From: Polyangia bacterium
GTDB lineage: Bacteria; Myxococcota_A; Polyangia; Polyangiales; Sandaracinaceae
Direction: 5' to 3'
NCBI GenBank assembly: GCA_030426845.1
Contig: JAUHXR010000063.1
Span: 1 to 33,801, forward strand
Length of the DNA: 33,801 nt
Shown: piece after piece, positions 13,738 to 33,222 of the stretch
How positions within the stretch are numbered: position 1 is the stretch's first letter
Layout: the number at the start of each line of letters is the position of its first letter
The notes under the pieces: generated by a model
Databases searched by the model: none
Told to the model about the DNA's origin: nothing
The model's input: the letters and a program-made list of their open reading frames with translations, nothing else
Program-made: the position numbers and the translations under genes

Positions 13738-13788
13738 TCGCCCTCGCTCGCCTGTCCCCGTCGGCGCCGCGCGCCGCTTTGGCCCGAG

Positions 13789-13926
13789 GTGGACCCCGCC
13801 CTCCCGAGCGCGCCCGCACCGCCCGCGCCCGCCGACGACCCGCTGGACCTGCTCGCGGAGGCGCTCCTCGCGCTGCTCGTGGAGACGCGCGCGCCGGCGC
13901 CTCGGGCGAGGCCCCCGGCGCGATGA
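13789..13926 (+). CDS. Very short 45-residue protein
   Basis: GTG 13789 to TGA 13926, the last four bases being the ATGA overlap with the nuclease gene. It is Pro/Ala-rich with a central acidic helix (DDPLDLLAEALLALLVETR). The ribosome site is poor (CCGAG), so the main support is the overlap and the helix. No function assigned. Confidence 0.45.
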   Translation: MDPALPSAPAPPAPADDPLDLLAEALLALLVETRAPAPRARPPAR

Positions 13927-15245: not shown

Positions 15246-15880
15246 GCGCCGGACCGCTCGCCCCGCAGGCCGTCACGTCGGCCGACCCGGCGGCGCCGCG
15301 CGGCGTGCTCGTCCTCGGCCTGGACGCGGGCTTCCGCAACTTCGGCTGGGGCGCCGTTCGCCTTCTCCCGGGCGGCGGCGAGCGCGTCGAGGCGCTCGGG
15401 TCGATCCGCACCGAGCCGAGCAAGCGGAGGGGCCTCGTCCGCGACGACGACCAGCGCCGCGCCGCCGAGATCGCGCGGCAGCTCCTGCAGATCGCGCGGC
15501 GGCACCACCCCGCGGTCCTCTGCGCCGAGGCCCTCAGCCACGTGAACCCGAAGGGCGCCCGCATGCCGGTGTCGACGACGGTGAAGGTCGGCCGCGCCTG
15601 GGGAGAGGTCGACATGCTCGCCGAGCTGCTCGAGACCGCGCTCGTCCAGGCGTCACCCCAGGCGATCAAGCAGGCCCTCTGCGGGTCGCGCTCGGCGAGC
15701 AAGGCGCAGGTCCAGCGCGCCGTCGTCGATCGCTACCCCGAGGCGGCGGCGCTCCTCGCGAGCGTCCCGGCGGGGCGCCGCGAGCACCCCGTCGACGCCG
15801 TCGGCGCCGTCGTGGCGTCGCTCCACAGCAACGAGCTCCGGCTCGCGCGACGGCTCGGCGTCGAGCCGCCGCGCGGCTGA
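15242..15880 (+). CDS. RuvC-like Holliday-junction resolvase
   Basis: 212 residues from GTG 15242, overlapping the nuclease stop as GTGA. An RNase-H-fold nuclease with GLDAGFRNFGWG (D28), VLCAEALS (E96) and EHPVDAVGAVVASL (H182, D185), which are the four catalytic positions of RuvC. A conserved-looking KVGRAWGEVDML and QASPQAIKQAL fill the middle as in RuvC. It would cut four-way junctions in replicating or recombining phage DNA. Its N-terminus is about 20 residues longer than usual, so the true start could be nearer GVLVLGLDAG. Confidence 0.88.
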   Translation: MSAGPLAPQAVTSADPAAPRGVLVLGLDAGFRNFGWGAVRLLPGGGERVEALGSIRTEPSKRRGLVRDDDQRRAAEIARQLLQIARRHHPAVLCAEALSHVNPKGARMPVSTTVKVGRAWGEVDMLAELLETALVQASPQAIKQALCGSRSASKAQVQRAVVDRYPEAAALLASVPAGRREHPVDAVGAVVASLHSNELRLARRLGVEPPRG

Positions 15881-15913: not shown

Positions 15914-15961
15914 ATGACGACGACCCGCCCCGCCCTCCCCGCCCGCGCGGACCGCCGATGA
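15914..15961 (+). CDS. 15-codon leader peptide overlapping the ParB-like start
   Basis: ATG 15914 follows a strong AGGAG, while the ParB-like ATG at 15958 has no purine-rich site in front of it. The mini-frame MTTTRPALPARADRR ends in the ATGA shared with that start. It may serve only to deliver ribosomes to the next gene by translational coupling. As a peptide it has no recognised function. Confidence 0.4.
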   Translation: MTTTRPALPARADRR

Positions 15962-16965
15962 GGATCGGCGACTACGCCGTCCACGACCTCGCCGGGCTCC
16001 TCCCGCTCATGGACGGCGAGCCGTTCGACGAGCTGGTGGCCGACGTCCGGGAGCACGGCCTCCGCGAGCCCATCGTGCTGCTGCCCGCGATCCACCGCGA
16101 CCCCGAGATGATCCTCGACGGCCGCAACCGCCTGCGCGCGTGCCTCGAGGCCGACCGGCGGCCGAGGTTCGTCTACTACCGGGGCTCCACCGACCTCGCG
16201 AGCCTCATCGAGTTCGTCCGGTCGCACAACCTGCTGCGCCGGCACCTCTCGCCGACGCAGATCGCCAACGCGGGGCTCATGTACGACGACTGGTACAGGG
16301 CGGCGGCGCGCTCGCGCATGCGCGACGGCGGCGCGGCGGGCGGGCGCTCAAGCCAGAAGGGGAGCGCAGATCTGCGCTCCCCTCGCGCCGGCAAGTCCAG
16401 CGCCGCGCTGGCCCAGGACCTCGGCGTCTCCGCGCGCACGGTCGAGAGCGTGCGGCGCGCGAGGAGGCTCGGCACCCCTGAGGTGGTCGCCGCGATGGCG
16501 GGGGGAGAGCTGTCCGCCGACACCGCCAGCGACCTCGTGCGCCTCGCGCCCGACGCGCAGGACCACGCCCTCGAGGAGGCGCGCCGCACGGGCCAGAGCG
16601 TGCGCTCGCTCGTCCGCGAGCGGCTCGCCGCGCCCGCGGGCGACACACCCTCAGACGTGCGGTCGGTGCAGGCCGCGTTCGATCGCTTCGCGGAGCTGGC
16701 CGCCGCCGCCGCCGCGGCGCTCGCCTCCGCGCGAGACGCCGCGGTGTCTGCGCGCGTAGCGGATCCCTCGATCGAGGACTCGATCCGCGCCTTCCAGACG
16801 CTGTCGGAGGGGCTGCTCCAGCGCCACCGGCCCGAGCGCCGCTGCGACCGGTGCGCGGGCGAGGGCTGCGCCCGCTGCGGCCACACCGGGTGGCTCGCGA
16901 AGGTCGCGCAGGAGGACGCGGGCCAGCGCCTCCGCCTGGTCGGCGCGTTGGGCGACGCGGAGTAG
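15958..16965 (+). CDS. ParB/Spo0J-like DNA-binding protein with a C-terminal zinc knuckle
   Basis: 335 residues. The ParB nuclease-like N-domain holds DELVADVREHGLREPIVL (24-41 region) and MILDGRNRLRAC (51-62), the conserved DGRNR box, which binds nucleotide in ParB. A linker (about 118-147) leads to a helix-turn-helix (SSAALAQDLGVSARTVESVR, 147-166). The C-terminus has CDRCAGEGCARCGHTG, a four-cysteine zinc knuckle. It could partition the element or act as a regulator or replication factor; no ParA partner is seen in the window. The linker is encoded by a perfect 26-bp palindrome. Confidence 0.82.
   Translation: MRIGDYAVHDLAGLLPLMDGEPFDELVADVREHGLREPIVLLPAIHRDPEMILDGRNRLRACLEADRRPRFVYYRGSTDLASLIEFVRSHNLLRRHLSPTQIANAGLMYDDWYRAAARSRMRDGGAAGGRSSQKGSADLRSPRAGKSSAALAQDLGVSARTVESVRRARRLGTPEVVAAMAGGELSADTASDLVRLAPDAQDHALEEARRTGQSVRSLVRERLAAPAGDTPSDVRSVQAAFDRFAELAAAAAAALASARDAAVSARVADPSIEDSIRAFQTLSEGLLQRHRPERRCDRCAGEGCARCGHTGWLAKVAQEDAGQRLRLVGALGDAE
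16358..16383. repeat. Perfect 26-bp palindrome within the ParB-like gene
   Basis: The half-site AGGGGAGCGCAGA is followed at once by its exact complement TCTGCGCTCCCCT with no spacer. It lies between the DNA codons of the ParB nucleotide domain and the helix-turn-helix. ParB-type proteins bind palindromes (parS), so a site for the protein encoded here is a natural guess, but this sequence does not match chromosomal parS and the guess is untested. Confidence 0.9.
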
Positions 16966-16971
16966 GCCTCC

Positions 16972-18504
16972 TTGCCCGCCCCGGCCCAGCCCCCCGCCGC
17001 GGCCGTGCGCCTCCGGCCGTATCAGCGCGCGGCGGTGGAGGGCGTGCGCGCCGCCGCGCGCGCCGGCGCGCGGCGCTGCCTGCTCGTCGCTCCGACGGGC
17101 AGCGGCAAGACGACCGTCGCGTCCGAGCTCATCCGGCTCGCGGTGGCGCGCGGGCGCCGCGCCCTGTTCGTCGCCCACCGCCGCGAGCTCATCGCCCAGG
17201 CCTACCAGCGCCTGCTCGACTTCGGGCTGCCCGCCTCGAGCGTCGGCGTCATCATGGCCAACGACCCGCGGCGCCGGCCGGGCGCCCACGTCCAGGTCGC
17301 CTCCATCGACACGCTGCGCGCGCGCGCCAAGCCGCGCGCGGAGCTCGTGATCGTCGACGAGTGCCACCGCGCGCTCGCCCGCTCGTACCGCGACCTCCAG
17401 GAGCACTACGCGCGCGCGGTCCACCTGGGCCTGACGGCCACGCCCTACCGCGCCGACGGCCGCGGCCTCGGCGACGCCTACGACGACCTGGTCGTCGTCA
17501 CCTCACCGCGCGCCCTCATCGCCGAGGGCTACCTCGTCGAGCCGCGCGTGTTCACCGTGCCGCCCTCGGCCCTCCCCGATCTGTCCGCGGTGCGCACCCG
17601 AGGCGGCGACTACGACAAGCGCGCGCTCGAGGACGCCGTCGATCACCGCGCCCTCGTCGGCAACCTCGTCGAGCACTGGCGCCGCCACGCCGAGGGCGTG
17701 CGCACGGTCGTCTTCGCGACCTCGGTCGCTCACAGCCGGCACATCGACGCCCGCTTCCGCGAGGCCGGCGTGGCGTCCGAGCACCTCGACGGCGCCACGC
17801 CCACCCACGAGCGCGACGCGATCCTCGCCCGCCTCGACGCGGGCGCCACCCGCGTCGTGTGCTCCGTCGGCACGCTGACCGAGGGCTGGGATCAGCCGTC
17901 GGTGAAGTGCGCCATCCTCGCGCGGCCGACCAAGTCGACGGGCCTGTACCTCCAGATGGCGGGCCGCATCCTCCGCCCATGGCGCGATCAGCCCGCGATC
18001 ATCCTCGACCACGCCGGCTGCGTCATGGAGCACGGGCTGCCCCAGCAGGACCGCGAGCACTCGCTCGAGGGCCCAAAGAAGGCGCGACGCCTGGGCGGCG
18101 GCGAGCCGCCCGCGAAGGCGTGCCCCGAGTGCTTCGCCATCGTGGCCCTCTCGGTCCGCGAGTGCCCCGCGTGCGGCGCGTCGCTCTCCGCGCCGCGCGA
18201 CGACGTGGAGGAGACCCCCGACGAGCTGGTCGAGGTCACCCTCGACGACGTGCAGCGCCTCGAGTGGGATCGGCTCCAGGCGCTGGGTGCGCTCCGCGGC
18301 TACCAGCCCGGCTGGGCCTCGCGTCGATTCAGAGAGAGGTTCGGCGGCACGCCGTCCGCTGCGCTGAGGGGATGGGTCACCCCCGCGGCCTCAACCGCAG
18401 AGCAACAGCGTCGGGTCTTCGACGCGCTCCTTGAGCAGGAGCCGAGCGCCGCGTGGGCGGCGGCGCGATTCAGAGCGGAGACAGGACTCAACGCCCCTGG
18501 GTGA
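16972..18504 (+). CDS. SF2 DEAD/DEAH-type helicase with zinc ribbon
   Basis: 510 residues from a TTG at 16972, with GGAGTAGG just upstream. Walker A APTGSGKTT (40-48), DECH box VDECHRA (128-134), GLTATPYR, and motif VI QMAGRILR (about 328-335) are intact, so an ATP-driven strand separation or DNA translocation is expected. A zinc ribbon CPECFAIVALSVRECPAC (384-401) follows, then a poorly conserved tail. It probably unwinds DNA during phage replication or branch migration with the RuvC-like protein. The final part of the gene is slightly lower in GC, running into the lower-GC insert downstream. Confidence 0.93.
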   Translation: MPAPAQPPAAAVRLRPYQRAAVEGVRAAARAGARRCLLVAPTGSGKTTVASELIRLAVARGRRALFVAHRRELIAQAYQRLLDFGLPASSVGVIMANDPRRRPGAHVQVASIDTLRARAKPRAELVIVDECHRALARSYRDLQEHYARAVHLGLTATPYRADGRGLGDAYDDLVVVTSPRALIAEGYLVEPRVFTVPPSALPDLSAVRTRGGDYDKRALEDAVDHRALVGNLVEHWRRHAEGVRTVVFATSVAHSRHIDARFREAGVASEHLDGATPTHERDAILARLDAGATRVVCSVGTLTEGWDQPSVKCAILARPTKSTGLYLQMAGRILRPWRDQPAIILDHAGCVMEHGLPQQDREHSLEGPKKARRLGGGEPPAKACPECFAIVALSVRECPACGASLSAPRDDVEETPDELVEVTLDDVQRLEWDRLQALGALRGYQPGWASRRFRERFGGTPSAALRGWVTPAASTAEQQRRVFDALLEQEPSAAWAAARFRAETGLNAPG

Positions 18505-19356: not shown

Positions 19357-22300
19357 GTGCAGTCGGGTAGCGAGCGGAGTGATAGCGCCGGCGACGAGGT
19401 GATCGCCGTGGCTCCCCACCGCGAGCTCAAGGCGTTCGACGGCGTCACCCCCGGCCGCGGCCCTGAGCTCTATCGGGTGCGCCCGCTGCGCGAGGCGCTG
19501 CTCGACACCTACGCGACCGACGCGCACCTCGTCGCCTACGTCGTCGAGGGCCGCGAGACACAGCCGCGGATCCTCAAGCGCGCGTGGGAGCTCGTCGGCG
19601 CGCCGGTCACGGTCGGCGTGTTCTTCGCCGACGTCGACGCGCCCGACCACGGGCGGTGGGACTTCGCGTTCTACGACCACCTGCTGACCGCCTTCGAGAC
19701 CCTGCCGATCCTCGCGCGCGCGGGCCTGTACCTCACGATGCACGGCGCGCGCGTCGTGCAGCCGCTCGACCGGCGGATCTCGGTCGGCGACGTCGAGCCG
19801 CTCATCGACGCCTGGCTCCACGCGCTCATCGACGCCGGCGTGCACCGGGAGGGCGTCGCGCACGTCGACCTCGCGTGCCGCGACTGGACCCGGCACTTCC
19901 GCGCGCCGCACGTGCAGCGGAGGATCCGGGGCCAGCGTCGGCGGGTGCCGTACACCTCGCCGCGAGTGGATCTGTCGCGCATGGCGCCCGTCGCGCCGCC
20001 GCGCCCGACCGCGTCGGCGCCGCCGCGCCGGCCCGCGCCAGCTCGACCGCGCCCCGCCCCTCCCTCACGCGCCGCGACGGCGCCAGGCGAGGTGCCGAGC
20101 GAGTGGGTCGACGGCGTCCGCGTGCTGGGTGACGCCTGCGCGCGCGTCCCCGACGGCCGACACGACCTGTACCTCGCGCTCGCGGGCGCGCTGATCGACA
20201 AGCGGGCGGCCCCGGCGCTGCTCCCCGCCCTGCTCGGGACCATCGCCACGCGCGCCGACGACCCGAACGTGCGCGACCGGGTGAAGTGCGGCGAGACGAC
20301 GGCGGAGCGGGCCGCCGCGGGCGTGGTCATCAAGGGCTACGGCACGCTGCGGATGAGGTGGCCCGCCATCGCGAGCGCGCTGGATGTGGCCGCCGAGTGG
20401 TCCGACAGGCCGTCGCCCGCCGCGGTCGGCACGCTCGAGGGCGCCGAGGCGGCGCTCCGCGCGCACCTCCGCGCGGCGCCGGACGGCGTGACCATCCTCG
20501 CGGCGGAGTGCGGGCTCGGGAAGACGCACGCGTTCCTCGAGGCCGCCATCGAGCGGACGCAGAGGCGTCGCCGCGAGGGCGCCGCTCGCGCGCCCCTCGA
20601 CTCCAAGACGGTCCTCTCGGTCGACAAGCACTCGCTCGCCATCCAGTGCTTCGAGCAGCTCCAGGAGGCCGACGTCCCTGCGCAGCGCCTCTTCAGCCCG
20701 GCCTCGCTGAAGGACGCCAGCGGCGATCCGGTGTGCAGGAAGCACGAGGTCGCGCGCGCGCTCGTGGCGGGCGGGCAGGCGATGCGCTGGGAGCTCTGCG
20801 AGGGGCGCGGCCTCCGGCCGTGCGAGCACCTCCGCGGCTGCGCCGCGACGCGCGGGTTCGAGGGTGACGAGGACGCGCGCGTCGTTGTCGGCGTCCACCC
20901 TCAGCTCGCGCAGCTGGCGCGCGCCGCCGGGACGACCGGGCTCCTCGGGATCGACGAGCCGCCGCCGCTCCCTCGCTCCACGACGATCACGACGGCCGAC
21001 CTCGACCTCGCGACCGCCGAGCTCGCGCGCTTCGACGGGATCTTCGCGGCGGCGCTCCGGCCCGCCCTGGGCGCGCTGTGGGCCTGGCTGCGGTACTGCC
21101 CCAGCCAGGAGCCCGTCGCCCTCCGCGCGGCCCTCTCGGCCCAGCGCTGGGGCGAGCGCGACGACGACCTCGCGTGGGCGCGGGCCGCGACCCTCCGCCA
21201 GTCCGACGACCTGGCCGAGCTCGCCGAGGCGACCGCCCACCAGGAGCGCCGCCGCCGCGGCCCGCCGCTGAAGTGGGAAGCGGTCCAGGTCGCCTCGGGC
21301 AACCCCGACTCCGCGCGGCGGATCGGGCGCGCGTCGCGCGTGCTGGAGACCCTGCGGTTCGCGCTCACGACCCCGGGCGTGGTCAAGCTCTACGCGACCG
21401 GCGACGAGGCCCCGGCCGCCGTGATCACGCACGTCGACGAGCCCCTCCGCCGCGCCCTCGCCCGCGAGGGGCGCACCGTCGTGCTCGACGCCAACGCGGA
21501 GACGAACCTCCCGCTCTACGAGCGGTCCCTCGGCTACACGCCCGAGCTCCTGCGGTTCGCCGCGCCGGACGGCGCCCCCATCGAGCGGACGCTCCTCCGG
21601 TGCAGCAAGGCGACGCGCGCAGGGTGGCGCGTGGAGGTCGATCGCTTCGACGCCGCGGGCGGCAGCTTCCGCAACGCGCTGGAGGCCGCGATCGACTGGG
21701 CGCTCGAGCGCCCAGCGGGCGCGATGGCGGTGATCACGATGAAGACCATCCGCGAGGTCCTCGAGGACTGCCTCCTCCCGGACGAGGAGCTCCCGCGCGG
21801 CCGCTACGACGGCCGACGTGGGCTCCTCAGCGCCGCGCGGGAGCACCTGGCCCCGCTCCTCCGACGCTTCCCTGGCGCGATCCTGTGGGGCCACTACGGG
21901 GCGCTGCGGGGCCTGAACGACATGGCCGACGTGGACCTCCTCGTCACGCTCGGGGACCCGCGCCCCAACGTCACCGCGACCGAGAACGACCTCGCGCTCC
22001 TCGACCTCGACGACGACACCGCGCGCCGCCGCGTGGAGCAGCTCGCGCGCGCGGAGCTCGAGCAGGCCCACGGGCGGCTGCGCGCCCCCCGCCGCGCGCG
22101 CGCCGCCCGCGCGCTGCACGTCGGCGCCCTCCGCCCCGGCGGATCGGGCTGGGCCGGCGACGTCGAGCTGCGCGAGCTGAAGGGCGGCCGACCCGGCGTC
22201 GCGCTCCGGGTCCACCCCGTGAAGGTCCGCGCCCTCGTCGAGCGCGTCGGCGGCCCCGCCGCGGCCGCCCGGATCCTCGGGCTGTCGCGCCGCTCGGTGC

Positions 22301-22410
22301 ACCGGTTCATGTCGGGCGACCGCGCGATCGATCCTGGCAAGCTGGCGACCCTGCGGGGCGCCCGGGAGGCCCCCTCCAGCGCGGGCGCCGCGTGTGACCA
22401 GAACCCTTAA
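19357..22410 (+). CDS. Archaeo-eukaryotic-type primase fused to a helicase-like ATPase
   Basis: 1017 residues from GTG 19357, after AAGGAGG (an alternative GTG at 19408 would remove 17 residues). The N-terminal domain (about 40-200) shows the AEP primase pattern: FFADVDAP with D92 and D94 for metal binding, LTMHGARV with H129, and RDWTRHFRAPHVQR (175-188). A Pro/Arg linker follows. The second half has a P-loop CGLGKTHA (384-391), a cysteine set around 475-510 (PVCRKHE, ELCEGRG, RPCEHLRGC) that may bind iron-sulphur or zinc, and a Walker B GIDEPP (about 530-535). A C-terminal helix-turn-helix (ARILGLSRRSVHRFMSGDRA) may bind the origin. It should prime and unwind DNA at the start of replication. 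Confidence 0.82.
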   Translation: MQSGSERSDSAGDEVIAVAPHRELKAFDGVTPGRGPELYRVRPLREALLDTYATDAHLVAYVVEGRETQPRILKRAWELVGAPVTVGVFFADVDAPDHGRWDFAFYDHLLTAFETLPILARAGLYLTMHGARVVQPLDRRISVGDVEPLIDAWLHALIDAGVHREGVAHVDLACRDWTRHFRAPHVQRRIRGQRRRVPYTSPRVDLSRMAPVAPPRPTASAPPRRPAPARPRPAPPSRAATAPGEVPSEWVDGVRVLGDACARVPDGRHDLYLALAGALIDKRAAPALLPALLGTIATRADDPNVRDRVKCGETTAERAAAGVVIKGYGTLRMRWPAIASALDVAAEWSDRPSPAAVGTLEGAEAALRAHLRAAPDGVTILAAECGLGKTHAFLEAAIERTQRRRREGAARAPLDSKTVLSVDKHSLAIQCFEQLQEADVPAQRLFSPASLKDASGDPVCRKHEVARALVAGGQAMRWELCEGRGLRPCEHLRGCAATRGFEGDEDARVVVGVHPQLAQLARAAGTTGLLGIDEPPPLPRSTTITTADLDLATAELARFDGIFAAALRPALGALWAWLRYCPSQEPVALRAALSAQRWGERDDDLAWARAATLRQSDDLAELAEATAHQERRRRGPPLKWEAVQVASGNPDSARRIGRASRVLETLRFALTTPGVVKLYATGDEAPAAVITHVDEPLRRALAREGRTVVLDANAETNLPLYERSLGYTPELLRFAAPDGAPIERTLLRCSKATRAGWRVEVDRFDAAGGSFRNALEAAIDWALERPAGAMAVITMKTIREVLEDCLLPDEELPRGRYDGRRGLLSAAREHLAPLLRRFPGAILWGHYGALRGLNDMADVDLLVTLGDPRPNVTATENDLALLDLDDDTARRRVEQLARAELEQAHGRLRAPRRARAARALHVGALRPGGSGWAGDVELRELKGGRPGVALRVHPVKVRALVERVGGPAAAARILGLSRRSVHRFMSGDRAIDPGKLATLRGAREAPSSAGAACDQNP

Positions 22411-22442
22411 CTGATGCTCTGAATCAAGGCTTCTGGTCACAC
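22392..22442. terminator. Long inverted repeat overlapping the primase stop codon
   Basis: GTGTGACCAGAA (22392-22403) and TTCTGGTCACAC (22431-22442) are perfect complements; after one mismatch four more pairs (CCTT/AAGG) give a 17-bp arm around a 17-base loop. The stop codon TAA lies at 22408-22410, inside the left half. No T-run follows, so it may be a Rho-independent-like terminator without U-tract, or a protein-binding site before the lipoprotein gene. Confidence 0.5.
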
Positions 22443-22497: not shown

Positions 22498-23535
22498 ATG
22501 GAACCCTCGCAGCGGCGCCGCGCCGCCACCCCGCCCACGCTGCTGGCGCTGCTCGCCGTCTCCCTCACCGGGTGCGGCTCGTGCGCCTGGACGACCGCCA
22601 CGCCCGCGGCGCCCCCCGCCCCCTACGACCTCGGGCTCCTCCCCGCGTCGCTCGGGATCGCGTGGCCCGCGCAGCCCGAGGTGGACCGCGAGGTCGCGCT
22701 CGACTCGGCCGACGACGTGGCCAACGGCTACTTCGAGTCGAACACGCGCCTCCGGATCCGCGTCGACCTGGACGAGCTGGTGATCGACGCCGACGACGTC
22801 ATCGTCGCGCCGGATCCCGGCGTCCGCGTGCGGTCGGTCCGCGTCCGGCGCGGCAACCGACGCCTCCGCTTCGAGGGCGGCCGGTACGGCGAGGTCGCCT
22901 TCGAGTCGCCGCACGTGATCAGCACGCCGAGCGGGTGGAGGAGCGAGGGGGAGATCACCGACGTCACCTTCTCGTCCGTGATCGTCCGCGGCGGCTCCTT
23001 CGGGCTCGTGGTCCGCGGGCGCCGCGTGGCCGTCCTCCACAGCGACCTCTCCTCGAGCTCGACGGCCCTCTTCGTGGGCGACACGACGCCCGTCCCGTCC
23101 AGCGACATCATCGTCGCCGACAGCGCGCTCTCGGGCGGCGGGGGCGCGGCGACGCTGGTCATCAACCAGGCCGAGCGGTCGGTGGTCGTGGACTCCTGGA
23201 TCGAGAACCACGCCACCTACGGCTACGTCATCTCCGGCGAGGCCGACGCGGCCTTCGCGCGGGGCAACACCTTCGTGGGCGGCGGCGCCTCGGTGGGCGA
23301 TCGGCCGAGCAGCCGCGTCCTGCGCGCGTGGCTCCTCGCGAACACGTTCTACCAGTCCGGCCCCCTCCTCGGCCTCGACCCCGGCCAGCTTGAGGAGCTC
23401 ACGCTCGTGGGCAACCGCGTCTACTCCGACCGCGTGCGGTGCGCGTGGTGCGCCCCGACGCCGCCCTGGTGGAACGTCGGCGCGAACTCGGTGCTCGCGT
23501 ACCGCGCGCCCCCCTCCGCCCCGGTGCGGCCCTGA
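22498..23535 (+). CDS. Beta-helix-like lipoprotein, first of a tandem pair
   Basis: 345 residues. Residues 1-25 form a lipoprotein signal (basic start, LLALLAVSLTGC) with lipobox LTGC and acylated C26. The mature part shows repeated short beta strands with spaced Val/Ile and Gly/Asn turns (GGRYGEVAFES, FGLVVRGRRVAVLHSDL, GDTTPVPSSDIIVADSAL, RGNTFVGGG, LVGNRVYSD), consistent with a right-handed parallel beta-helix. No catalytic residues were recognised. Cysteines near the end (CAWC) may form a disulphide. It has no obvious phage structural role and looks like cargo exposed on the cell surface. The downstream gene is a paralog. Confidence 0.78.
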   Translation: MEPSQRRRAATPPTLLALLAVSLTGCGSCAWTTATPAAPPAPYDLGLLPASLGIAWPAQPEVDREVALDSADDVANGYFESNTRLRIRVDLDELVIDADDVIVAPDPGVRVRSVRVRRGNRRLRFEGGRYGEVAFESPHVISTPSGWRSEGEITDVTFSSVIVRGGSFGLVVRGRRVAVLHSDLSSSSTALFVGDTTPVPSSDIIVADSALSGGGGAATLVINQAERSVVVDSWIENHATYGYVISGEADAAFARGNTFVGGGASVGDRPSSRVLRAWLLANTFYQSGPLLGLDPGQLEELTLVGNRVYSDRVRCAWCAPTPPWWNVGANSVLAYRAPPSAPVRP

Positions 23536-24590
23536 CGCGGCCGTCGCCCCGGCTGCGCTGCCTGCCCGCGCTGCTGCCCGCCGCCGCGCTGCTCCTCAGC
23601 GTCGCGCTCAGCGGGTGCCAGCAGTGCGCGAGGGTGATCCGCCCCGAGCCGCCCGAGGGCTCGGGCCCGGCCGCGCGAGAGCTCGGCGTCCTCCCCGCCG
23701 AGCTCCACGTGCGCTGGCCCCTGCGGCCCCGCGTCCGCGAGGAGGTGACCCTGGCGCCGAGCGGCGACGACCTCGTCGTGTGGGACACCCCGCTCACCCG
23801 GCTGCGCGTGCGCGACGAGGTCGAGCGGCTCGTTATCAGCGCGTCCGACGTCGAGGTCGACGTGGACGAGGGCATGTACGTCGGCGCCCTCGAGGTCGCG
23901 CCCGGGAGCCAGCGGGTGTGGATCCGCGGCGGGCGCTACGGGGAGATCGTCGTCGCCGCGCCCGAGGAGCTGAGCCCGCCGCCGCCCGAGTGGCGCGCGC
24001 CCGACATGGTCGAGGACGTGCTCATCGAGGGCGCCACGGTCGACGCGCTCCGCCCGGAGCAGATCGGGCTCCGGTTCACGGGGCGCCGCGTCGCCGTCGT
24101 GAGCAGCCGGGTCGACGCTCAGATGGCGGCCGTCTGGATCGGCGACGCGGGGCCCGTCGCCTCGGAGGACGTCATCGTCGCGGGGTGCAGCCTCCGGAGC
24201 GTCGACGACTCGACGCTCGTCGTGGTGGGCGCCGAGCGCGCCGTGATCGTCGAGAGCTGGCTCGAGAGCCCGGTGAGCGCGGCGCTCCGGATCCACGGCG
24301 AGTCGGCGGGGGTGGTGGCGACCCGCAACACCCTCGTCGGCGGCGGCGCGCAGATCGGCACCGACGCCCGCGACGCGGTCGTCGACGCCTGGTTCTGGGC
24401 GAACACCGTCTACCACTCGGCGCACACCCTGATGAACCTCGCGCCGTACCGGATCCACCGCCTCGTGCTGACGGACAACCGGGTCTACAGCGACGCGGCG
24501 ACGGCCCTCTGGGGCGGAGAGAGCCGACCGTCGTGGGTGATCGCGAACAACCGGGTGCGCCCGCACCGTCCGCCACCGGCGCGGCCGTGA
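23469..24590 (+). CDS. Beta-helix-like lipoprotein, second of a tandem pair
   Basis: 373 residues from the GTG at 23469; the start is doubtful. The protein shares GGRYGEI, GRRVAV, the GDAGPVASEDVIVAG block, NTLVGGGAQIG, WANTVY and NRVYSD with the first lipoprotein, so it is a clear paralog. The lipobox VALSGC is preceded by the hydrophobic run LPALLPAAALLL. The ideal signal start would be the CTG at 23532, which overlaps the previous stop as CTGA; the GTG gives an unusually long basic leader of about 50 residues before the cysteine. The end is followed six bases later by a hairpin. Function unknown: surface adhesin, decoy or superinfection-exclusion factor are possibilities. Confidence 0.78.
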   Translation: MERRRELGARVPRAPLRPGAALTRPSPRLRCLPALLPAAALLLSVALSGCQQCARVIRPEPPEGSGPAARELGVLPAELHVRWPLRPRVREEVTLAPSGDDLVVWDTPLTRLRVRDEVERLVISASDVEVDVDEGMYVGALEVAPGSQRVWIRGGRYGEIVVAAPEELSPPPPEWRAPDMVEDVLIEGATVDALRPEQIGLRFTGRRVAVVSSRVDAQMAAVWIGDAGPVASEDVIVAGCSLRSVDDSTLVVVGAERAVIVESWLESPVSAALRIHGESAGVVATRNTLVGGGAQIGTDARDAVVDAWFWANTVYHSAHTLMNLAPYRIHRLVLTDNRVYSDAATALWGGESRPSWVIANNRVRPHRPPPARP

Positions 24591-24596
24591 GCGGAC

Positions 24597-24661
24597 CGGG
24601 GGGGAGGGTCGGAATTCCAGCGCCCCGGCGCGGGCGCGCGGCCTTGCGACCCTCCCTCCCG
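24597..24661. terminator. Strong hairpin after the lipoprotein pair
   Basis: GGGAGGGTCG (24602-24611) pairs with CGACCCTCCC (24647-24656); the arms extend on the outer side through one G-U and four more pairs, about 15 bp in all, round a 35-base loop that can itself fold. It begins six bases after the stop codon of the second lipoprotein. No T-run follows, so termination strength is uncertain, but the position fits an end-of-operon signal. Confidence 0.45.
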
Positions 24662-24680
24662 CACTGGCCCGCTCGATTCA

Positions 24681-24694
24681 ATTGGACGTCCAAT
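24681..24694. promoter_or_regulatory. Perfect 14-bp palindrome ATTGGACGTCCAAT
   Basis: The sequence reads identically on both strands and is A/T-rich at its ends, which stands out in this GC-rich region. It lies at the start of the control region before the terminase genes, next to the GGGAC array. A dimeric repressor or activator site is likely; the binding protein is unknown. Confidence 0.5.
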
Positions 24695-24763
24695 AGCTGT
24701 CCCGCCTCCGAGGAGAAGCCGATCGATCCCGATCACTTCCGCGCGGGCGGACCAGCGGGACAG

Positions 24764-24803
24764 CGCTGGGACACGACAGGGACGCTGTCGCCGCGTCCCA
24801 GCG
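24764..24803. promoter_or_regulatory. Nested hairpin inside the GGGAC array
   Basis: CGCTGGGAC (24764-24772) pairs with GTCCCAGCG (24795-24803), and CGACA (24774-24778) pairs with TGTCG (24786-24790) inside it, with small bulges. The double stem could form in RNA or extruded DNA, and is built from the array sites themselves. Confidence 0.45.
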
Positions 24804-24840
24804 ATCGGGCGCCACGCGCGCCATCGAGAGGCGCGAGCAC

Positions 24841-24945
24841 ATGGGCACCAACGTCGTCAGCGTGAGCAAGTTCGACCTGGGACACGCGCGGGACCGCGGG
24901 GGCGCTGTCCCGCGCGTGTCCCGCCGTCGCGCGGCGGTGGCCTGA
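24841..24945 (+). CDS. Possible 34-residue protein in the terS leader
   Basis: ATG 24841 preceded by GAGAGG; the TGA is immediately followed by the terS GTG. The peptide is short and basic (ends VPRVSRRRAAVA). Because half of it is encoded by the 16-bp inverted repeat, it may be an accident of the regulatory DNA rather than a gene. If translated it would couple ribosomes to terS. Confidence 0.3.
   Translation: MGTNVVSVSKFDLGHARDRGGAVPRVSRRRAAVA
24879..24922. promoter_or_regulatory. Perfect 16-bp inverted repeat before terS
   Basis: GGGACACGCGCGGGAC (24879-24894) is exactly mirrored by GTCCCGCGCGTGTCCC (24907-24922) across a 12-base loop. It lies within the 34-codon frame at 24841 and 24 bases before the terS GTG. 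Each arm contains two array sites 11 bp apart, so four sites stand in mirror symmetry, as expected for a dimeric or ring-shaped DNA-binding protein such as a small terminase. Confidence 0.65.
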
Positions 24946-25674
24946 GTGGCCGGCGGCCCGACGCGCGGCCCCGGGCGGCCGCACCGGGGCGAGGAGCCCG
25001 ACCTCGATCAGGCCGCGCTCGACCGGCTGCTCGTGCACGGCGAGGAGACGACGACCCCGGGCGGCGAGCCCGCGCGGCGGTTCCCGAGCTACCGCGAGCT
25101 CGCCGAGCGCTTCGGGATCAGCAAGAGCCTCGTCGGGCGATACGCGCAGCAGCACGGCTGCGTCGCGCGGCGCCGCGCGGCGGCCGAGGCGCGGCAGGTG
25201 GCCGAGGCGCTGCCGGCGGAGCCCGTCGCGGACGCCGCTCCCCCGCCCGCGCCCGCGGCCACGCCGCCGGACCTCGCGCGGCGCGCGGGCGACCTCGACG
25301 GCGCGCTGCGGAGCGCGGACGACGGCCTGAGCGTCGAGCGGATCCTGCGGATGGCCGAGCGCTGGCTGGACCTCCTGGAGGAGTCCATCGACGAGGGCCG
25401 CCTGAGGCCCGACCTGGCCGACCTGGAGCGCTTCATCCGCGTCATTAAGGCGGCCAAGGAGGACGCCGACGAGCGCGCGGGGATCCCCGACGGCATGCCA
25501 ACCCTGGACGACCTCCAGCGCCTCTACGCGGAGAACGAGCGGCGCGCGCGCGAGGAGACGCCCGCGACGCAGGGGCGCCTGCCGCACGGCACGATCCCGA
25601 TCAGCTGGGTCCGGGCGAACGAACCGCAGCTCCGGGCCAAGCTGGCGGCGCTCGAGGCCCAGGGCGGCGCCTGA
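24946..25674 (+). CDS. Phage terminase small subunit (TerS)
   Basis: 242 residues from GTG 24946. Residues about 48-72 are a helix-turn-helix (SYRELAERFGISKSLVGRYA) as in TerS proteins, which bind the packaging start on the phage genome. A Pro/Ala linker and a helical oligomerisation region (about 95-175, with LSVERILRMAERWLDLLEES) follow, and the C-terminus would contact TerL. The large subunit starts directly after its stop codon, the usual order. The sequence itself is divergent, so the call rests on the helix-turn-helix, architecture and position. Confidence 0.8.
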   Translation: MAGGPTRGPGRPHRGEEPDLDQAALDRLLVHGEETTTPGGEPARRFPSYRELAERFGISKSLVGRYAQQHGCVARRRAAAEARQVAEALPAEPVADAAPPPAPAATPPDLARRAGDLDGALRSADDGLSVERILRMAERWLDLLEESIDEGRLRPDLADLERFIRVIKAAKEDADERAGIPDGMPTLDDLQRLYAENERRAREETPATQGRLPHGTIPISWVRANEPQLRAKLAALEAQGGA

Positions 25675-27303
25675 TTGCTCGCGGTCGTCAAGCGGACCGA
25701 GGCCGAGCTGCTCGCGTACTTCGGCGCGGCGTCGGCGTTCGCCACGGGCGCGCTGCGCTACGACGGCGAGCCGCTCGCGCTCGAGTCCTACCAGCGGGCG
25801 TTCCTCGACGACCGCTCCACCTTCCGCTGGATCGTGAAGGCGCGGCAGGTCGGCTTCTCGTTCCTCTTCGCGATCGAGTGCCTCATCCGCTGCCACCTGG
25901 AGCCGAACTTCACCGCGATCTGCGTCTCGTACAACCACGCCGACGCGGTCGAGAAGGTCCGGGTCGCGCGCCAGCTCTACGAGGAGCTGCCCGCGCCGTA
26001 CCGCAAGCGGCTCGTCACCGACACGCGCACCGAGCTCGAGTTCGAGACGAACAGCGGCGCGCGCCGCGGGCGCTCGCGCATCGTGTCCGTTCCGAGCAAG
26101 CCCCCGCGCGGCAAGCACGGCACCGTCTACCTCGACGAGCTCGCGCACTACCAGGACGCGCGCAAGGTCTACGCGGGCACCACCGCGGCGATCGCGCGCG
26201 CGAAGGGCCAGCTCACCGCGGCGTCGACGCCGCTGGGCCGCCGCGGGCTGTTCTGGGAGGTCTGCGCCGAGGAGCTGCGCGCGTACCCCGGGCACGCTCG
26301 ACAGGCCGTGCCGTGGTGGGTCTGCACGTTCTTCTGCGTGGACGTCGGGCGCGCGGTCGTCGAGGCGCCGCTCATGGCCACCGAAGAGCGCGTCGAGCGC
26401 TTCGGGACCGAGGCGCTGCGCCACCAGCTCGAGTCGCTCGACCTCCTCGAGTTCCAGCAGGAGTTCGAGCTGAGCTTCGTCGCGGAGCGCCTCTCGTACT
26501 TCCCGTACGACCTGATCCTCGGCTGCACCGTCGGCGAGCTCGAGCTCGCCGAGGACTGGAGCCAGGTCCCCGTCCCCACCGGTCGCCTCGTCGCCGGCTA
26601 CGACGTCGGCCGGCGCGCGCACCGCAGCGCCCTCGCGCTGTTCGAGGAGCGGCCCGGGCCGCGCTTCGTGTGCCGGGCGCTCAAGCTGTACGACGACGTC
26701 CCGTTCGAGGAGCAGAAGGCGGAGCTCCGCGGGATGCTCGAGGCGCTCCCGATCGCGCGCTTCTCGATCGACGGCAACGGCATCGGCATGAACCTCGCGG
26801 AGGACCTCGGCCGCGAGTTCCCCCAGGTCGTCACCGAGCCGTCGAGCGGGCCCGCGAAGGAGCGCTGGGCGACGGACCTCAAGATCACCCTGCAGCGCAG
26901 GGCGGTCGAGCTCCCGCGCGAGCGCGGCCTGGTCGCGGAGATCCACTCGGTCGAGCGCCGCGTGAGCTCGAGCGGGCGCGTCTCGTTCGACTCGCCCGCG
27001 ACCTCGAAGGGGCACGCCGACCGGTTCTGGGCGATCGCGATGGCCTGTCAGAAGGAGCGGCAGGCGGAGGGCGGCGAGCTGCCCACCGTCCACGCGCGCG
27101 TCGTCGGCGGCGAGCGCGCGAGCTTCGAGCGCAGCCTCGACCGGCTGATCGGCTGGTCGCAGGGCGCGACGGAGGCGACCGCAGGTGAGGCCGAAGCGCC
27201 GGCGTCTCCCCGCGCGGGGCCGAAGCGGACCGCGGCGCGCCTCCCCCCCGCCGGCGCGGTGCGGCGAGGTCGACCCAAGGGCAGAAGCGAGAGGAGGGCG
27301 TGA
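25675..27303 (+). CDS. Phage terminase large subunit (TerL)
   Basis: 542 residues from TTG 25675, placed with no gap after the terS stop. ATPase: a degenerate Walker A KARQVGFS (55-62), Walker B TVYLDELAHY (150-159, D154 E155) and coupling motif AASTPLGRRG (182-191). Nuclease: VAGYDVGRRA (D310), FSIDGNGIG (D366) and KGHADRFWAI (D449), the three acidic metal ligands of the RNase-H-like domain. The enzyme translocates DNA into the prohead and cuts it. A Pro/Arg-rich tail follows from about residue 490. The nonclassical P-loop, with Gln-Val in place of GxxG, is common in terminases of this group. The gene is followed by a small frame overlapping by one base. Confidence 0.93.
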   Translation: MLAVVKRTEAELLAYFGAASAFATGALRYDGEPLALESYQRAFLDDRSTFRWIVKARQVGFSFLFAIECLIRCHLEPNFTAICVSYNHADAVEKVRVARQLYEELPAPYRKRLVTDTRTELEFETNSGARRGRSRIVSVPSKPPRGKHGTVYLDELAHYQDARKVYAGTTAAIARAKGQLTAASTPLGRRGLFWEVCAEELRAYPGHARQAVPWWVCTFFCVDVGRAVVEAPLMATEERVERFGTEALRHQLESLDLLEFQQEFELSFVAERLSYFPYDLILGCTVGELELAEDWSQVPVPTGRLVAGYDVGRRAHRSALALFEERPGPRFVCRALKLYDDVPFEEQKAELRGMLEALPIARFSIDGNGIGMNLAEDLGREFPQVVTEPSSGPAKERWATDLKITLQRRAVELPRERGLVAEIHSVERRVSSSGRVSFDSPATSKGHADRFWAIAMACQKERQAEGGELPTVHARVVGGERASFERSLDRLIGWSQGATEATAGEAEAPASPRAGPKRTAARLPPAGAVRRGRPKGRSERRA

Positions 27304-27512: not shown

Positions 27513-29104
<1,592 letters not shown>

Positions 29105-29221
29105 ACGGGGACCGAGTAGCAACCAGCGTTGCGTACATGGAGAAGGAAACTCCAAGGCAATCCCGGGAATCTGCGGTACCCTTATCGACGCTCAAGCTGT
29201 GAACCAATGTGCGGAGGACTC

Positions 29222-29587
29222 GTGAGCCCCGAACAACGACGCCGCGTAGAGAGAGTCCTTACTCGGATTGCCGAGGCACATGCTCCCGACGAGATGCTAC
29301 TTGTCGAGCATGTCGTAGCGAGCTTAGAAGCGATCAACCTGGCCGAACATGAGGCCGCGCTGTCCGCGGCGCCGGAGGACGCCGCGCCTGCGGGCGGTGG
29401 GCTACTAGCCGAGCTCGCTCCGCTCGTGGACGTCGTGCTGGTACCAATCATCAAGGGTGTCGCGTCTGGCACGGCCTCAGCACTTGTGGCCGTCGCCGCA
29501 CGGGAGGCGCTTCGTCGCCACCGCGCGGATCTTCCGGCCGCGAAGCAGGACGAGATCGCGGAGACGGTGGAGCGCGAACTCGAGTAG
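29222..29587 (+). CDS. 121-residue protein of the lower-GC insert
   Basis: GTG 29222 follows GGAGGAC; the longer frame upstream lacks a ribosome site. The N-terminal half is helical and charged (QRRRVERVLTRIAEAHAPDE), and residues about 60-95 form a glycine/hydrophobic helix (LVDVVLVPIIKGVASGTASA) that could touch a membrane. The C-terminus is charged. No family recognised. It is followed 41 bases later by a membrane M48-like protease with the same lower GC, so the two likely form one unit inserted between portal and the Dam-XkdF gene. Confidence 0.6.
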   Translation: MSPEQRRRVERVLTRIAEAHAPDEMLLVEHVVASLEAINLAEHEAALSAAPEDAAPAGGGLLAELAPLVDVVLVPIIKGVASGTASALVAVAAREALRRHRADLPAAKQDEIAETVERELE

Positions 29588-29628
29588 CGGCATCGCCCCC
29601 TCCCCACGCCGGCAGGGGGACTCATAAC

Positions 29629-31503
29629 ATGAACAGTGATACCGCGCTGTCGTCCCCAATTGCGGTGGCCATGCTCGGAAGCAGCGTGGTGGCGGGGGTT
29701 GGTCTCGAGCTAGGAATAGCCCGTGCGCACGGCGAGGGCTGGGTGCTTCTCCCGCTAGGTCTCTTCGCAGCAGTCTGCGCCCTTGGCTCTTGGCTGCAGT
29801 TGCGCGCCACCCAGAGCTCAGCGCCACGATGGCTCGCGAGGGCCGTCGGCATACGCCAGCTAGCTGGCGATCCCGCTCCGGCCGTCATTCGCGAGTTCGT
29901 TGGCAACAGACTCGCAGCTCACAGCGTGACCAACGTCGGCATCGACGTTGTGGTACTTCGGAAGCCAACGAGGGTAGTAGACGCGAGCGTAGCGGATGTC
30001 CCAGGCGGCCACGCCATTGTCCTCACGCGCCCGTGCTTGAGCCTTTGGCTACAGAACAGAGCGGCATTCTGCGCACTCGTAGACCACGAGGTGGCTCATG
30101 TTCTCGCGGGTGATGCGAGGACCTATCGTTGGTTTCGGATCCTCATCCTCGCTCCACTCGTTCTACTTCCATTTCGCTTGGTCCTCGCTGTTCTCTGGCC
30201 GGCTGAGTACGGGGCGCTCCTCTCACGATTGGCGCCCGGCCTCCTGCGCTACGAAGCCGTCGGAGAGTTCACCACAATTGGGGTCTCGCAGTCCAGCGCA
30301 GTCCACCAGCATGTGGAGCAAGTGCCTGGAATCGAGATCGCGAGCAGTCTACCTCTTTCCTGGTGGCTCGTACTGTTGGTTGTCGCGCTGACATCTGGGC
30401 TCCTGCTTGCGCAGGTGTATGCGTCCTTCCGCGCATACCTGAGGACAAGAGAGTTGCTGGCCGATGCCTTCGCCCTCAAGGCTGCCCCGGACCGCCGGAT
30501 TGCGTTCGAGGCGCTCGACAGTCTCATCCAGGACAACCACGGCGACCCCGGCCGCTCTGCTGGACTTTGGCACCCACCGGTAGCGGTGAGGAGAAAGGCC
30601 CTCGCAAACTCGCGAGACGGCTCCGTACCGAACACCGCCGCCGCCGGGCTTACGTTGGCACTGATTGCCCTTGCTGTATGTCGCCTCCTGGTCCTGGACC
30701 ATGATGCGGGCCGGCCGTGGCCGACACTGGGCGCCATCCTTCCATGGATCTTCGTTTTCTCAGTCCTTCTCATATGGCCGTTTCACACATCTCTGGTTAG
30801 AGAGGTGGGTGAACGCGGCTCGCCGATACGCCATATCCGGTGGTACGGGGTTCGACGTTCAGTCAGATCCTCAGCGCTAGCGGGGGTAATCTGCGCGCTG
30901 ATTCTGGCGCCGAGATGGATTCCCGACTTGCTCTTCTGGATCTGGAATCAGAACTCCACGATCGCTCCTGTTGTCGCCACACAGATTATTGATTCTCTCA
31001 TCTGCGCCGGATCACTTGCCGCGATGGGATTGATGTCCACTGCCGCGGTGATTGGCGCAACTGTTACGTTGAGACGGGCGCCGGTAGCCATTCATCTACT
31101 CGCTTCCGGCGCGAGTCTGACTCTGGCAACTCTAGTCGTTTCAGCCGGTGTTGTAGTTGGTGTCGTCGGCCCGTACAAGGAGGCGGCCTTTGACGAGTAT
31201 CAGACACGACAGGACGCCCTGATGATCGACCGTACAGGGTTGCCCCGGTCTGTCGTGGGTAACGCGGCCCATCTTGAGGCTCCTAACTCGGGTGAGGCCT
31301 TAGCCTTGCACATGTGCCAGGTGGCAGAGCGCCGAGCGATCGCGAATGCACTTCAGGACCAGCTCTTCTGGCCACCGCTCTTCTGGGTGCATCTCGATGA
31401 GCGCTTCCTGCGCGTTCAGAACTACGTAACTTCTGACGATCCACTGGGACGTCTCGCAGAGTGCACGGAGGGCTTCTTTCAGGCCGCTACCCACCGGGAA
31501 TAG
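29629..31503 (+). CDS. Multi-pass membrane M48-family zinc metalloprotease
   Basis: 624 residues from ATG 29629 (GGGGAC upstream). The active site HEVAH is at 153-157 within ALVDHEVAHVLAGDART, and the third zinc ligand is expected in RELLADAFAL (E275, with the ExxxD pattern of M48 enzymes). About eight to ten hydrophobic segments flank the catalytic region, two before it and most after. The protein is a relative of HtpX/Ste24-like membrane proteases. A sample (30361-30420) has 35 of 60 bases G/C against 46 of 60 in the terminase gene, so it was probably acquired separately. It interrupts the head operon; it could protect the lysogen from other phages or act on envelope proteins. Its targets are unknown. 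Confidence 0.85.
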   Translation: MNSDTALSSPIAVAMLGSSVVAGVGLELGIARAHGEGWVLLPLGLFAAVCALGSWLQLRATQSSAPRWLARAVGIRQLAGDPAPAVIREFVGNRLAAHSVTNVGIDVVVLRKPTRVVDASVADVPGGHAIVLTRPCLSLWLQNRAAFCALVDHEVAHVLAGDARTYRWFRILILAPLVLLPFRLVLAVLWPAEYGALLSRLAPGLLRYEAVGEFTTIGVSQSSAVHQHVEQVPGIEIASSLPLSWWLVLLVVALTSGLLLAQVYASFRAYLRTRELLADAFALKAAPDRRIAFEALDSLIQDNHGDPGRSAGLWHPPVAVRRKALANSRDGSVPNTAAAGLTLALIALAVCRLLVLDHDAGRPWPTLGAILPWIFVFSVLLIWPFHTSLVREVGERGSPIRHIRWYGVRRSVRSSALAGVICALILAPRWIPDLLFWIWNQNSTIAPVVATQIIDSLICAGSLAAMGLMSTAAVIGATVTLRRAPVAIHLLASGASLTLATLVVSAGVVVGVVGPYKEAAFDEYQTRQDALMIDRTGLPRSVVGNAAHLEAPNSGEALALHMCQVAERRAIANALQDQLFWPPLFWVHLDERFLRVQNYVTSDDPLGRLAECTEGFFQAATHRE

Positions 31504-31693
31504 AACCGAGCTGCATGGACGAGTGGCATCGGTGGTGCCGTCATCCCGCCTGACCACCGGAACATGGGCGAGAGGGACTTCTGCGACTGCCGGATTGTAG
31601 CTCCCCGTCAGGGGCCCCCGGACAGATTGTCCCGTTCTTTGCCTCCTCGCCTTTCCTCGTCCGAGACGCCGATGCCTGTCGGCCTCGAACGAT

Positions 31694-31885
31694 ATGCCGA
31701 GGACGCACGCCCTCCTTACATCCGATCCGCTCGCGCTGGACGCCCTCCGCCGCGCGGTCCGCCGCCTCCGGCGGGGCCTCCGCTCCTGCCGGAGCCGCTG
31801 GGCCGCGCGTCGGTTCAGCGCCGCGCTCGCGCACGCGGCCGACCACGCGACGACGCTCCGCTTCCCCGAGGACCCGCGCCGATGA
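31694..31885 (+). CDS. Small basic 63-residue protein before the Dam-XkdF gene
   Basis: ATG 31694 to TGA 31885, overlapping the next ATG by four bases. High-GC codons return here after the lower-GC insert. The protein is strongly basic and helical (LRRAVRRLRRGLRSCRSRWA). It has no strong ribosome site. The coupling overlap is the main support; no function assigned. Confidence 0.45.
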   Translation: MPRTHALLTSDPLALDALRRAVRRLRRGLRSCRSRWAARRFSAALAHAADHATTLRFPEDPRR

Positions 31886-33222
31886 GCGCGACCCTTGACG
31901 CGGCGCTCGCGCGCGCCCGGCTCGTCCTGGACGTCGCCTCGCGCGGCCCGATCGCCAAGACGATCTTCGCCAGCCCGGCGGGCAAGAAGCGGCTCGCGAA
32001 GCGGCTCGTGGCGATGCTTCCGGCGCACTCGACGTACGTCGAGCCGTTCGCGGGCTCCGCCGCGGTGCTCTTCGAGAAGGAGCCGTCCAGCGTCGAGGCG
32101 ATCAACGACGCGGACGCCGACATCGCGGAGGCGTACCGGCTCATCAAGCGGCTCAACCCGAGGAAGCTCGAGCGCCTCCGCCGGATGCGGTGGACCGGCG
32201 ACGAGGCGACGTACAAGCGGGTCTACTCCTCGAGCCCGAGCGGGGAGCTGGAGCGGCTGCACCGCTTCCTCTACCTCGCGACCTTCAGCTACGGGAAGCT
32301 CCGGGGGTCGTCGTTCAACCCCGGCTCCGCGGGCAAGGAGTCGCGCACGATGGCGCGGCTCGAGCAGAGCGCGCCGCGGCTCGCGAAGGTGCGCGTGCAC
32401 TCGGGCGACTACCTGAAGGTGGTCAAGCGCTACGACGGCGCGGGCACCGCGTTCTTCTTCGACCCGCCGTACGCCGGCTACGACGTCAACGTCGGCGAGT
32501 CGAGGTTCGACGAGGAGCGCTTCTACGAGGTGCTCAAGGGCCTCCGCGGGGAGTTCCTGCTGACCTACGGCATCCGCGGGAAGCTGCCCGGCCTCCTCAA
32601 GGGGTCGGGCTTCCACATCCAGCGCGTGCGCACGCCGCGCGGCATCCGATCGATGCGCGGGGTCGGCGGCTCGAGCGTCCTGACGCAGCTCGTCGTCACG
32701 AACTACGCGCCGCCGACCCGGAAGGACGGCTGGCTCGAGCCGTGGGACGGACAGCTCGAGCTCGGCGACCACGTCCCGACGGTCGGCCCGTCCACCACGA
32801 CGGAGGGCGCCTTCGCCAAGTCGATCCCGCTCCTCAAGGGCGCGGACCCCGCGGACGAGCGGTTCGTGTTCGGGGTGGTGCTCGAGCCGGAGACGGTGGA
32901 CGCGCAGGGCGACGTCTACTCAGCCGACGAGGTCCGCAAGGCCGCGCACCGCTTCATGGAGGAGTACCGCGGCCTCGGCCTCCAGCATCAGCTCCGGGTC
33001 AACGACCAGGTGAAGATCCTCGAGAGCTTCATCGCCCCCGTGGACTTCGGCGTCGGCGACGTGGCCGTCAAGAAGGGCACATGGCTCCTCGCGGTGCGCG
33101 TGCTGTCCGACGCGCTGTGGGCGCGGGTCGCCGAGGGCAGCCTCACCGGCTTCTCGATCGGCGGCTCGGCGCGGAAGGTGCCGGAGCCCACCGCGCGCCG
33201 GGAGGCCGAGGGCGCGGCGTGA
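31882..33222 (+). CDS. DNA adenine methylase fused to XkdF-like prohead protease
   Basis: 446 residues. N-terminal half (about 20-280): a D12-class (Dam-type) adenine-N6 methyltransferase with the AdoMet loop YVEPFAGSAAVLF (52-64) and catalytic FFDPPYAG (192-199). C-terminal half (about 325-430): the XkdF/peptidase S78-like capsid protease, with FVFGVVLEPETVDAQGDVYS (328-347), H369 in GLQHQ and S425 in LTGFSIGGSA, likely the catalytic pair. The methylase would mark the phage genome, for example against host restriction, and the protease cleaves head proteins during maturation. The joining of both in one chain right after the portal genes is notable. There is no stop or frameshift between them. 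Activity of each half is inferred from motifs. Confidence 0.88.
   Translation: MSATLDAALARARLVLDVASRGPIAKTIFASPAGKKRLAKRLVAMLPAHSTYVEPFAGSAAVLFEKEPSSVEAINDADADIAEAYRLIKRLNPRKLERLRRMRWTGDEATYKRVYSSSPSGELERLHRFLYLATFSYGKLRGSSFNPGSAGKESRTMARLEQSAPRLAKVRVHSGDYLKVVKRYDGAGTAFFFDPPYAGYDVNVGESRFDEERFYEVLKGLRGEFLLTYGIRGKLPGLLKGSGFHIQRVRTPRGIRSMRGVGGSSVLTQLVVTNYAPPTRKDGWLEPWDGQLELGDHVPTVGPSTTTEGAFAKSIPLLKGADPADERFVFGVVLEPETVDAQGDVYSADEVRKAAHRFMEEYRGLGLQHQLRVNDQVKILESFIAPVDFGVGDVAVKKGTWLLAVRVLSDALWARVAEGSLTGFSIGGSARKVPEPTARREAEGAA

Follow-up and report, generated by a model that had tools for sequence, protein, structure and literature searches.

Iteron origins of phages are located inside the initiator gene in the lambda O type and in the replisome organizers of Gram-positive phages, and they consist of short repeats about one helical turn apart that run in both direct and inverted orientation. 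In phages with a P4-type primase-helicase, the origin and a cis region follow the alpha gene on its downstream side. The array of GGGAC boxes described here resembles the lambda O-type and replisome-organizer origins in the length, spacing and mixed orientation of its repeats. However, unlike the lambda O-type origins, it lies outside the replication genes, in the gap that precedes terS, and it has no evident AT-rich tract beside it. The array also differs from the P4 type in its word and in its distance from the primase-helicase gene, from which it is separated by 2.3 kb and two genes. The pac site of phage SPP1, which spans promoters and the start of terS and contains direct repeats (PMC4737164), may be regarded as the best-known positional analogue of the array. 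Direct repeats lie just upstream of terS in SPP1 and SF6 as they do here, and in SPP1/SF6 they are also found at the terS start (PMC4737164). Unlike the SPP1/SF6 repeats, the boxes of the array are short, numerous and strictly phased, and the likeness is a positional one that implies no TerS kinship.

The window, which is the whole stretch of DNA analysed, is a contig of 33,801 nucleotides from a GC-rich genome of 9.4 Mb in 538 contigs, whose size, GC content and relatives point to a probably myxobacterium-like lineage. From ~11.8 kb rightward the contig consists of a prophage, and it ends inside the head module, so that the element is incomplete. The prophage is ordered as serine integrase, exonuclease/RuvC, ParB-like protein, helicase, 1017-residue protein, two beta-helix genes, the gap with the array, TerS, TerL, portal and head genes. 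Its features up to the large terminase subunit are as follows.

11828-13369, serine integrase
13692-15245, exonuclease
13970-15880, RuvC-like gene in an overlapping frame
15958..16965, plus strand, ParB-like/HTH protein of 335 aa (phrog_4715, 3.4e-13), an alternative candidate binder of the array
16972..18504, plus strand, superfamily 2 helicase of 510 aa (phrog_16, 2.7e-98; ResIII; Helicase_C)
19357..22410, plus strand, apparent primase-helicase of 1017 aa with a C-terminal HTH, a candidate binder of the array
22392..22442, inverted repeat with 17-nt arms (94%) and the word GTGTGACC, which runs across the primase-helicase stop
22498-23535 and 23439-24590, two beta-helix-like paralogues (38% identity; fold by sequence reading)
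24591..24945, gap of 355 bp between the second beta-helix gene and terS, with the whole array inside and no long ORF
24597..24661, G+C-rich inverted repeat with 18-nt arms (89%) that closely follows the preceding gene and resembles a terminator but lacks a T run
24841..24945, plus strand, 34-aa ORF with coding-like third-position GC (31/34) that holds the right half of the array
24946..25674, plus strand, TerS homologue of 242 aa (phrog_32085 of unknown function, 7.8e-28; phrog_1206 terminase small subunit, 0.0039)
25675..27303, plus strand, TerL of 542 aa (Terminase_6N, Terminase_6C, phrog_5713 and others), followed by the portal gene

The terminator scan did not detect the inverted repeat at 24597..24661. 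A perfect 14-bp palindrome (ATTGGACGTCCAAT) occupies 24681-24694, directly before the first box and at the least GC-rich spot of the gap. The 34-aa ORF is in frame with terS and ends directly before it, with a single TGA between the two, and it may encode a leader peptide or represent a small gene. The first beta-helix-like gene (22498-23535) has a lipoprotein-like signal, and the pair, placed between the replication module and the array, is possibly cargo.

From motifs and weak profile matches, the 1017-residue protein appears to be a primase-helicase that carries an HTH at its C terminus. The motifs GLGKT and IDEPP and an N-terminal DxD/HG/DWTRHFR pattern are invariant in three aligned homologues from viral contigs, and the profile matches are to DEAD (0.029) and to a YdaS-like HTH (0.0014). 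All of the homologous primase-helicase genes carry a long inverted repeat at the 3' end, each of unlike sequence (L307 9043-9136; L308 5946-5999; L309 9050-9101; L049 by eye). The corresponding repeat of the prophage at 22392-22442 could be a competing origin candidate or simply a terminator. No GGGAC array was found with the primase-helicase homologues (41-43% identity).

The array itself was first noticed in a preliminary description as nine GGGAC copies upstream of the terminase genes, in exact 11-bp groups and mirror-image placement. Each of these observations holds. In a count over the 33.8-kb contig, nine GGGAC boxes fall within 24699-24922, all of them where they had been placed (plus strand at 24757, 24768, 24779, 24879 and 24890; minus strand at 24699, 24795, 24907 and 24918), and 57 further boxes are spread over the remaining 33.6 kb. 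The boxes are arranged in four blocks.

24699..24703, minus strand, box 1, a single box facing box 2, with which (24757) it forms an 18-nt inverted repeat (83%)
24757..24783, plus strand, three boxes in exact 11-bp steps (24757, 24768, 24779)
24795..24799, minus strand, box 5, facing box 3 (CGCTGGGAC / GTCCCAGCG)
24879..24922, both strands, four-box dyad GGGAC-N6-GGGAC, 12-bp centre, GTCCC-N6-GTCCC, with 20-nt arms that are 95% complementary

The exact grouping takes the form of four same-strand pairs at 11 bp (24757/24768, 24768/24779, 24879/24890 and 24907/24918), and no other such pair exists anywhere in the 33.8-kb contig. The mirror-image placement corresponds to three inverted repeats, with 18-nt arms at 24688-24705/24755-24772 (83%), 12-nt arms at 24764-24775/24792-24803 and 20-nt arms at 24879-24898/24903-24922 (95%). 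Together, these repeats take in every box except that at 24779, which sits inside the second repeat. Six of the nine boxes continue with A as the sixth base. A tandem or codon repeat artefact is ruled out by the 6-bp spacers, which differ, and by two control words that behave quite differently in the search of viral contigs presented below.

Can such an array arise by chance from base composition? When the 66 GGGAC sites of the contig were placed at random, nine of them fell within 224 bp in 0 of 20,000 trials. When nine sites are taken as given for that stretch, the probability of four 11-bp pairs is 2e-5, and that of four pairs at any spacing from 6 to 29 is 1.1e-4. In a scan of every 5-mer at every spacing of 7-13 bp, the array is the most extreme phased cluster of the contig, and only one of 200 third-order Markov sequences contained a matching cluster (corrected P ~0.005-0.01). 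GGGAC is rarer in the whole contig than in shuffles (66 observed versus 119 predicted). Random placement, the 5-mer scan and the Markov sequences thus rule out chance from composition as the source of the array, in line with the preliminary description, which had considered composition alone insufficient. A similar density elsewhere in the element would have spoken against that description, and no GGGAC spacing or density comparable with that of the array occurs elsewhere in the contig. Throughout the 9.4-Mb host genome, GGGAC-N6-GGGAC is found 29 times against an average of ~36 per gap length (936 over 26 gap lengths), and four of the 29 occurrences are the array. The 11-bp spacing is not enriched, which rules out a genome-wide host regulatory word. 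Among 188 genomes of the phylum, the dyad GGGAC-N6-GGGAC-N(6-25)-GTCCC-N6-GTCCC is found in the array and at one other place, inside a chromosomal coding gene. From its phasing, its dyads and its uniqueness, the array is predicted to be, very probably, the docking site of a phage protein.

Similar arrays are found in other phages. The four-box dyad was found in 13 viral contigs, several of which have boxes inside replisome-organizer-like genes, and a search of viral contigs for three GGGACA words with free gaps of 2-9 returned at least 120 loci. Among the matches listed, 59 of 120 GGGACA arrays have spacings that are all 9-12 bp and not all multiples of three. In the same search with control words, only 7 of 119 arrays of the reversed word ACAGGG and 9 of 119 arrays of GGTTCA have such spacings, and codon-multiple repeats dominate. 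The Fisher values (1e-14 against ACAGGG and 3e-13 against GGTTCA) overstate independence owing to kinship among the GGGACA loci, about ten of which belong to one pelagiphage-like group; without this group, 49 of 110 GGGACA arrays among the matches listed are still phased. Most of the phased arrays are located within replication genes or immediately at their 3' side. Proteins encoded no more than 1.2 kb from them are rich in replication families, including AAA_25 (22 of 108), Prim-Pol (6) and DnaB_C (3), as well as PriCT_1/2, VapE-like, Phage_rep_org_N and DnaD-like loader families, whereas the top family near the control arrays, a set unfiltered for spacing, is collagen-like (16 of 108), with AAA_25 and DnaB_C at 2 each. 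Many GGGACA arrays resemble initiator-gene origins in that they lie inside replisome-organizer or DnaD-like genes and in all codon frames. Within 13 ORFs the boxes occupy each of the three frames (42, 30 and 20), which points to selection on the DNA word and not on the peptide.

In Salicola phage CGphi29, the GGGAC cluster starts no more than 20 bp from the primase stop. Orthologous primases are followed at their 3' side by arrays of other words, GGTTCA/TGAACC in Alteromonas phage PB15 (L313 ~5000-5200) and GGTACA/TGTACC in Idiomarinaceae phage 1N2-2 (L314 ~5010-5210). These loci resemble the P4 type in having two-direction repeats 3' of the primase-helicase gene, and their differing words are as would be expected of iterons that change together with the initiator. 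Elsewhere, initiators of several unrelated families are encoded near GGGACA arrays, and the common word therefore points to no single binder. The array of the prophage shares the characters of the phased GGGACA-type arrays, namely at least three boxes on one strand at 9-12 bp steps without codon locking, through its non-coding boxes 24757/24768/24779, and it also has facing opposite-strand boxes that form a dyad (24879-24922). It is neither contained in a replication gene nor placed directly 3' of one, and this is also true of the arrays of the pelagiphage-like subgroup.

We tentatively suggest, as a possibility well below an even chance, that phased GGGACA arrays represent a cis-element that is widespread in phages, is common to unrelated replication modules and in some lineages, this one included, stands before the terminase genes. 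Such an element would go back either to a single small DNA-binding protein that has escaped notice until now or to repeated convergence on one word, and it would perhaps link the start of replication with the start of packaging. A literature search brought up no account of phage GGGACA arrays, which is weak evidence of novelty given that subscription papers were mostly outside its coverage; a host motif, GGGACAG(N)15TGTCCC, is on record for Bifidobacterium animalis (PMC5217627). GGGACA boxes one helix turn apart and out of codon register provide a searchable signature that marks replication regions in very different phages. If this signature holds, phage origins would become predictable from sequence, and a GGGACA-reading protein would become a directly testable question.

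A parallel on the terminase side is provided by marine contigs related to pelagiphage HTVC023P (GC 0.33-0.38), which share with the prophage the GGGACA word, the 11-bp step, the facing box and the place upstream of terS. Their array consists of two GGTGTCCC copies, ~60 bp, three GGTGTCCC copies at 11 bp and then a facing GGGACACC. It is located ~80-125 bp upstream of terS in five contigs (L074, L075, L083, L112 and L116) or of another gene, and in L111 the gene after the array sits directly before terS. After the array, a conserved TATA-like element lies ~20 bp before the gene start. One of the contigs, L083, also resembles the prophage in having a ParB-like gene upstream, along with a DNA polymerase gene. 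Cultured HTVC023P has repeated CTAGGAAA boxes in the terS gap (L318 ~5670-5780), where its relatives have GGGACA. Unlike the prophage, however, these are AT-rich marine phages with an unrelated TerS, and no kinship was detectable between the pelagiphage-like TerS and that of the prophage.

What is the biological function of the array? We favour the view that it is the iteron cluster of the prophage replication origin, because GGGACA arrays are biased to replication genes across phages; this prediction, drawn from sequence features and comparison, falls only a little short of an even chance. Consistent with an origin, the boxes show exact 11-bp phasing on both strands together with dyads, they form a single site in the element, and the replication module lies upstream with only the two paralogous beta-helix genes intervening. 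At such an origin, a phage-encoded initiator would bind successive GGGAC boxes, the first candidate being the 1017-residue primase-helicase with its C-terminal HTH and the second the ParB-like/HTH protein. Boxes 11 bp apart would lie on one helix face, and the bound subunits could stack side by side. The two facing sets of boxes could then give rise to a two-sided complex at the dyads, and the helicase would be loaded there. We infer the binding of a protein, the identity of that binder and the start of replication at the array. However, the 2.3 kb between the primase-helicase gene and the array, which sets the prophage apart from CGphi29 and several other loci, argues against an origin, as does the inverted repeat of a different word that the primase-helicase gene has at its own 3' end. 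The lack of a GGGAC array in the primase-helicase homologues and the variety of initiator families near GGGACA arrays elsewhere also count against it. The gap contains no clear AT-rich unwinding element, with a short less GC-rich stretch at ~24675-24700, and the GC skew shows no sharp switch.

The preliminary description had offered packaging recognition, iterons and an operator as explanations. The terminase location and the non-random phasing on which it drew stand, the comparison tilts the choice toward iterons, and the pelagiphage-like group keeps pac and operator alive. These three functions could overlap, with the HTH of the 1017-residue protein, the ParB-like protein and TerS as candidate binders, and the array is a concrete candidate origin-or-packaging site for a poorly known prophage group of a GC-rich, apparently myxobacterium-like host. 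As a pac or cos-linked site, the array would be bound by TerS at its phased boxes, and TerL would cut nearby to start packaging. A pac site is expected at or just upstream of terS, and the array ends at 24922, 24 bp before the terS start codon at 24946. The N-terminal segment of TerS is HTH-like by sequence reading and weakly matches phrog_664, a DNA binding protein (0.02), and the GGGACA arrays upstream of terS or another gene in the unrelated pelagiphage-like group add to this case. Nonetheless, we consider packaging recognition rather unlikely. TerL relatives of 55-59% identity occur within the order as well as in one IMG/VR contig, and their TerS, where found, is 29-30% identical over most of the protein; upstream of these TerS relatives, there is neither an array nor a gap, and terS directly follows another gene. 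The array is thus not a property of this terminase family, and a conserved pac of the family is ruled out. A generic scan of the TerS relatives revealed no phased words of their own at comparable strength. A closer TerL relative (L040, 91% identity) is left out of this comparison because its contig starts inside terL, and neither TerS nor the primase-helicase was found in that genome. GGGACA triplets in the genomes of terminase relatives, in the three cases viewed, have a tRNA-like stretch nearby or belong to repetitive coding sequence, with no sign of a phage replication region. Moreover, a word common to the prophage and the pelagiphages would be a coincidence under packaging recognition given that their TerS proteins are not detectably related, and GGGACA arrays elsewhere lie mostly at replication genes. 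The TerS DNA-binding domain of SF6/SPP1 showed little preference for the repeats (PMC4737164).

An operator or promoter of the late operon, at which a phage activator or repressor would bind the boxes and control terS and the genes after it, is doubtful to a similar degree. The array stands at the early/late gene boundary after a terminator-like inverted repeat, and the TATA-like element that follows the pelagiphage-like array before the gene also suits an operator. However, regulators usually have several sites, and the array is a single cluster in the 22 kb of prophage on the contig, whose right end is cut off. In addition, a promoter scan that is ill-suited to GC-rich hosts found no sigma-70-like promoter, and the right half of the array lies inside the 34-aa ORF and would hence be downstream of any promoter serving that ORF. 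The dyads could also act as RNA by folding in the terS leader mRNA and controlling translation or termination. As RNA, the region gives a better fold than shuffles do (z = -3.8) because of the inverted repeats in the array, the hairpin with 20-nt arms ends 24 nt upstream of the terS start, and the 34-aa ORF is a possible leader peptide. We nevertheless regard an RNA element as highly improbable: a hairpin does not require exact 11-bp phasing of direct repeats, and other phages show like phasing both within genes and on their 3' side.

Farther into the head module, a gene for an M48 peptidase is located in a lower-GC island at ~29000-31500 (0.60-0.65 versus 0.75), possibly a recent insertion or cargo. 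Near the right end of the contig, the ORF at 31564-33222 joins a D12-type adenine methyltransferase domain to an XkdF-like head protease domain.
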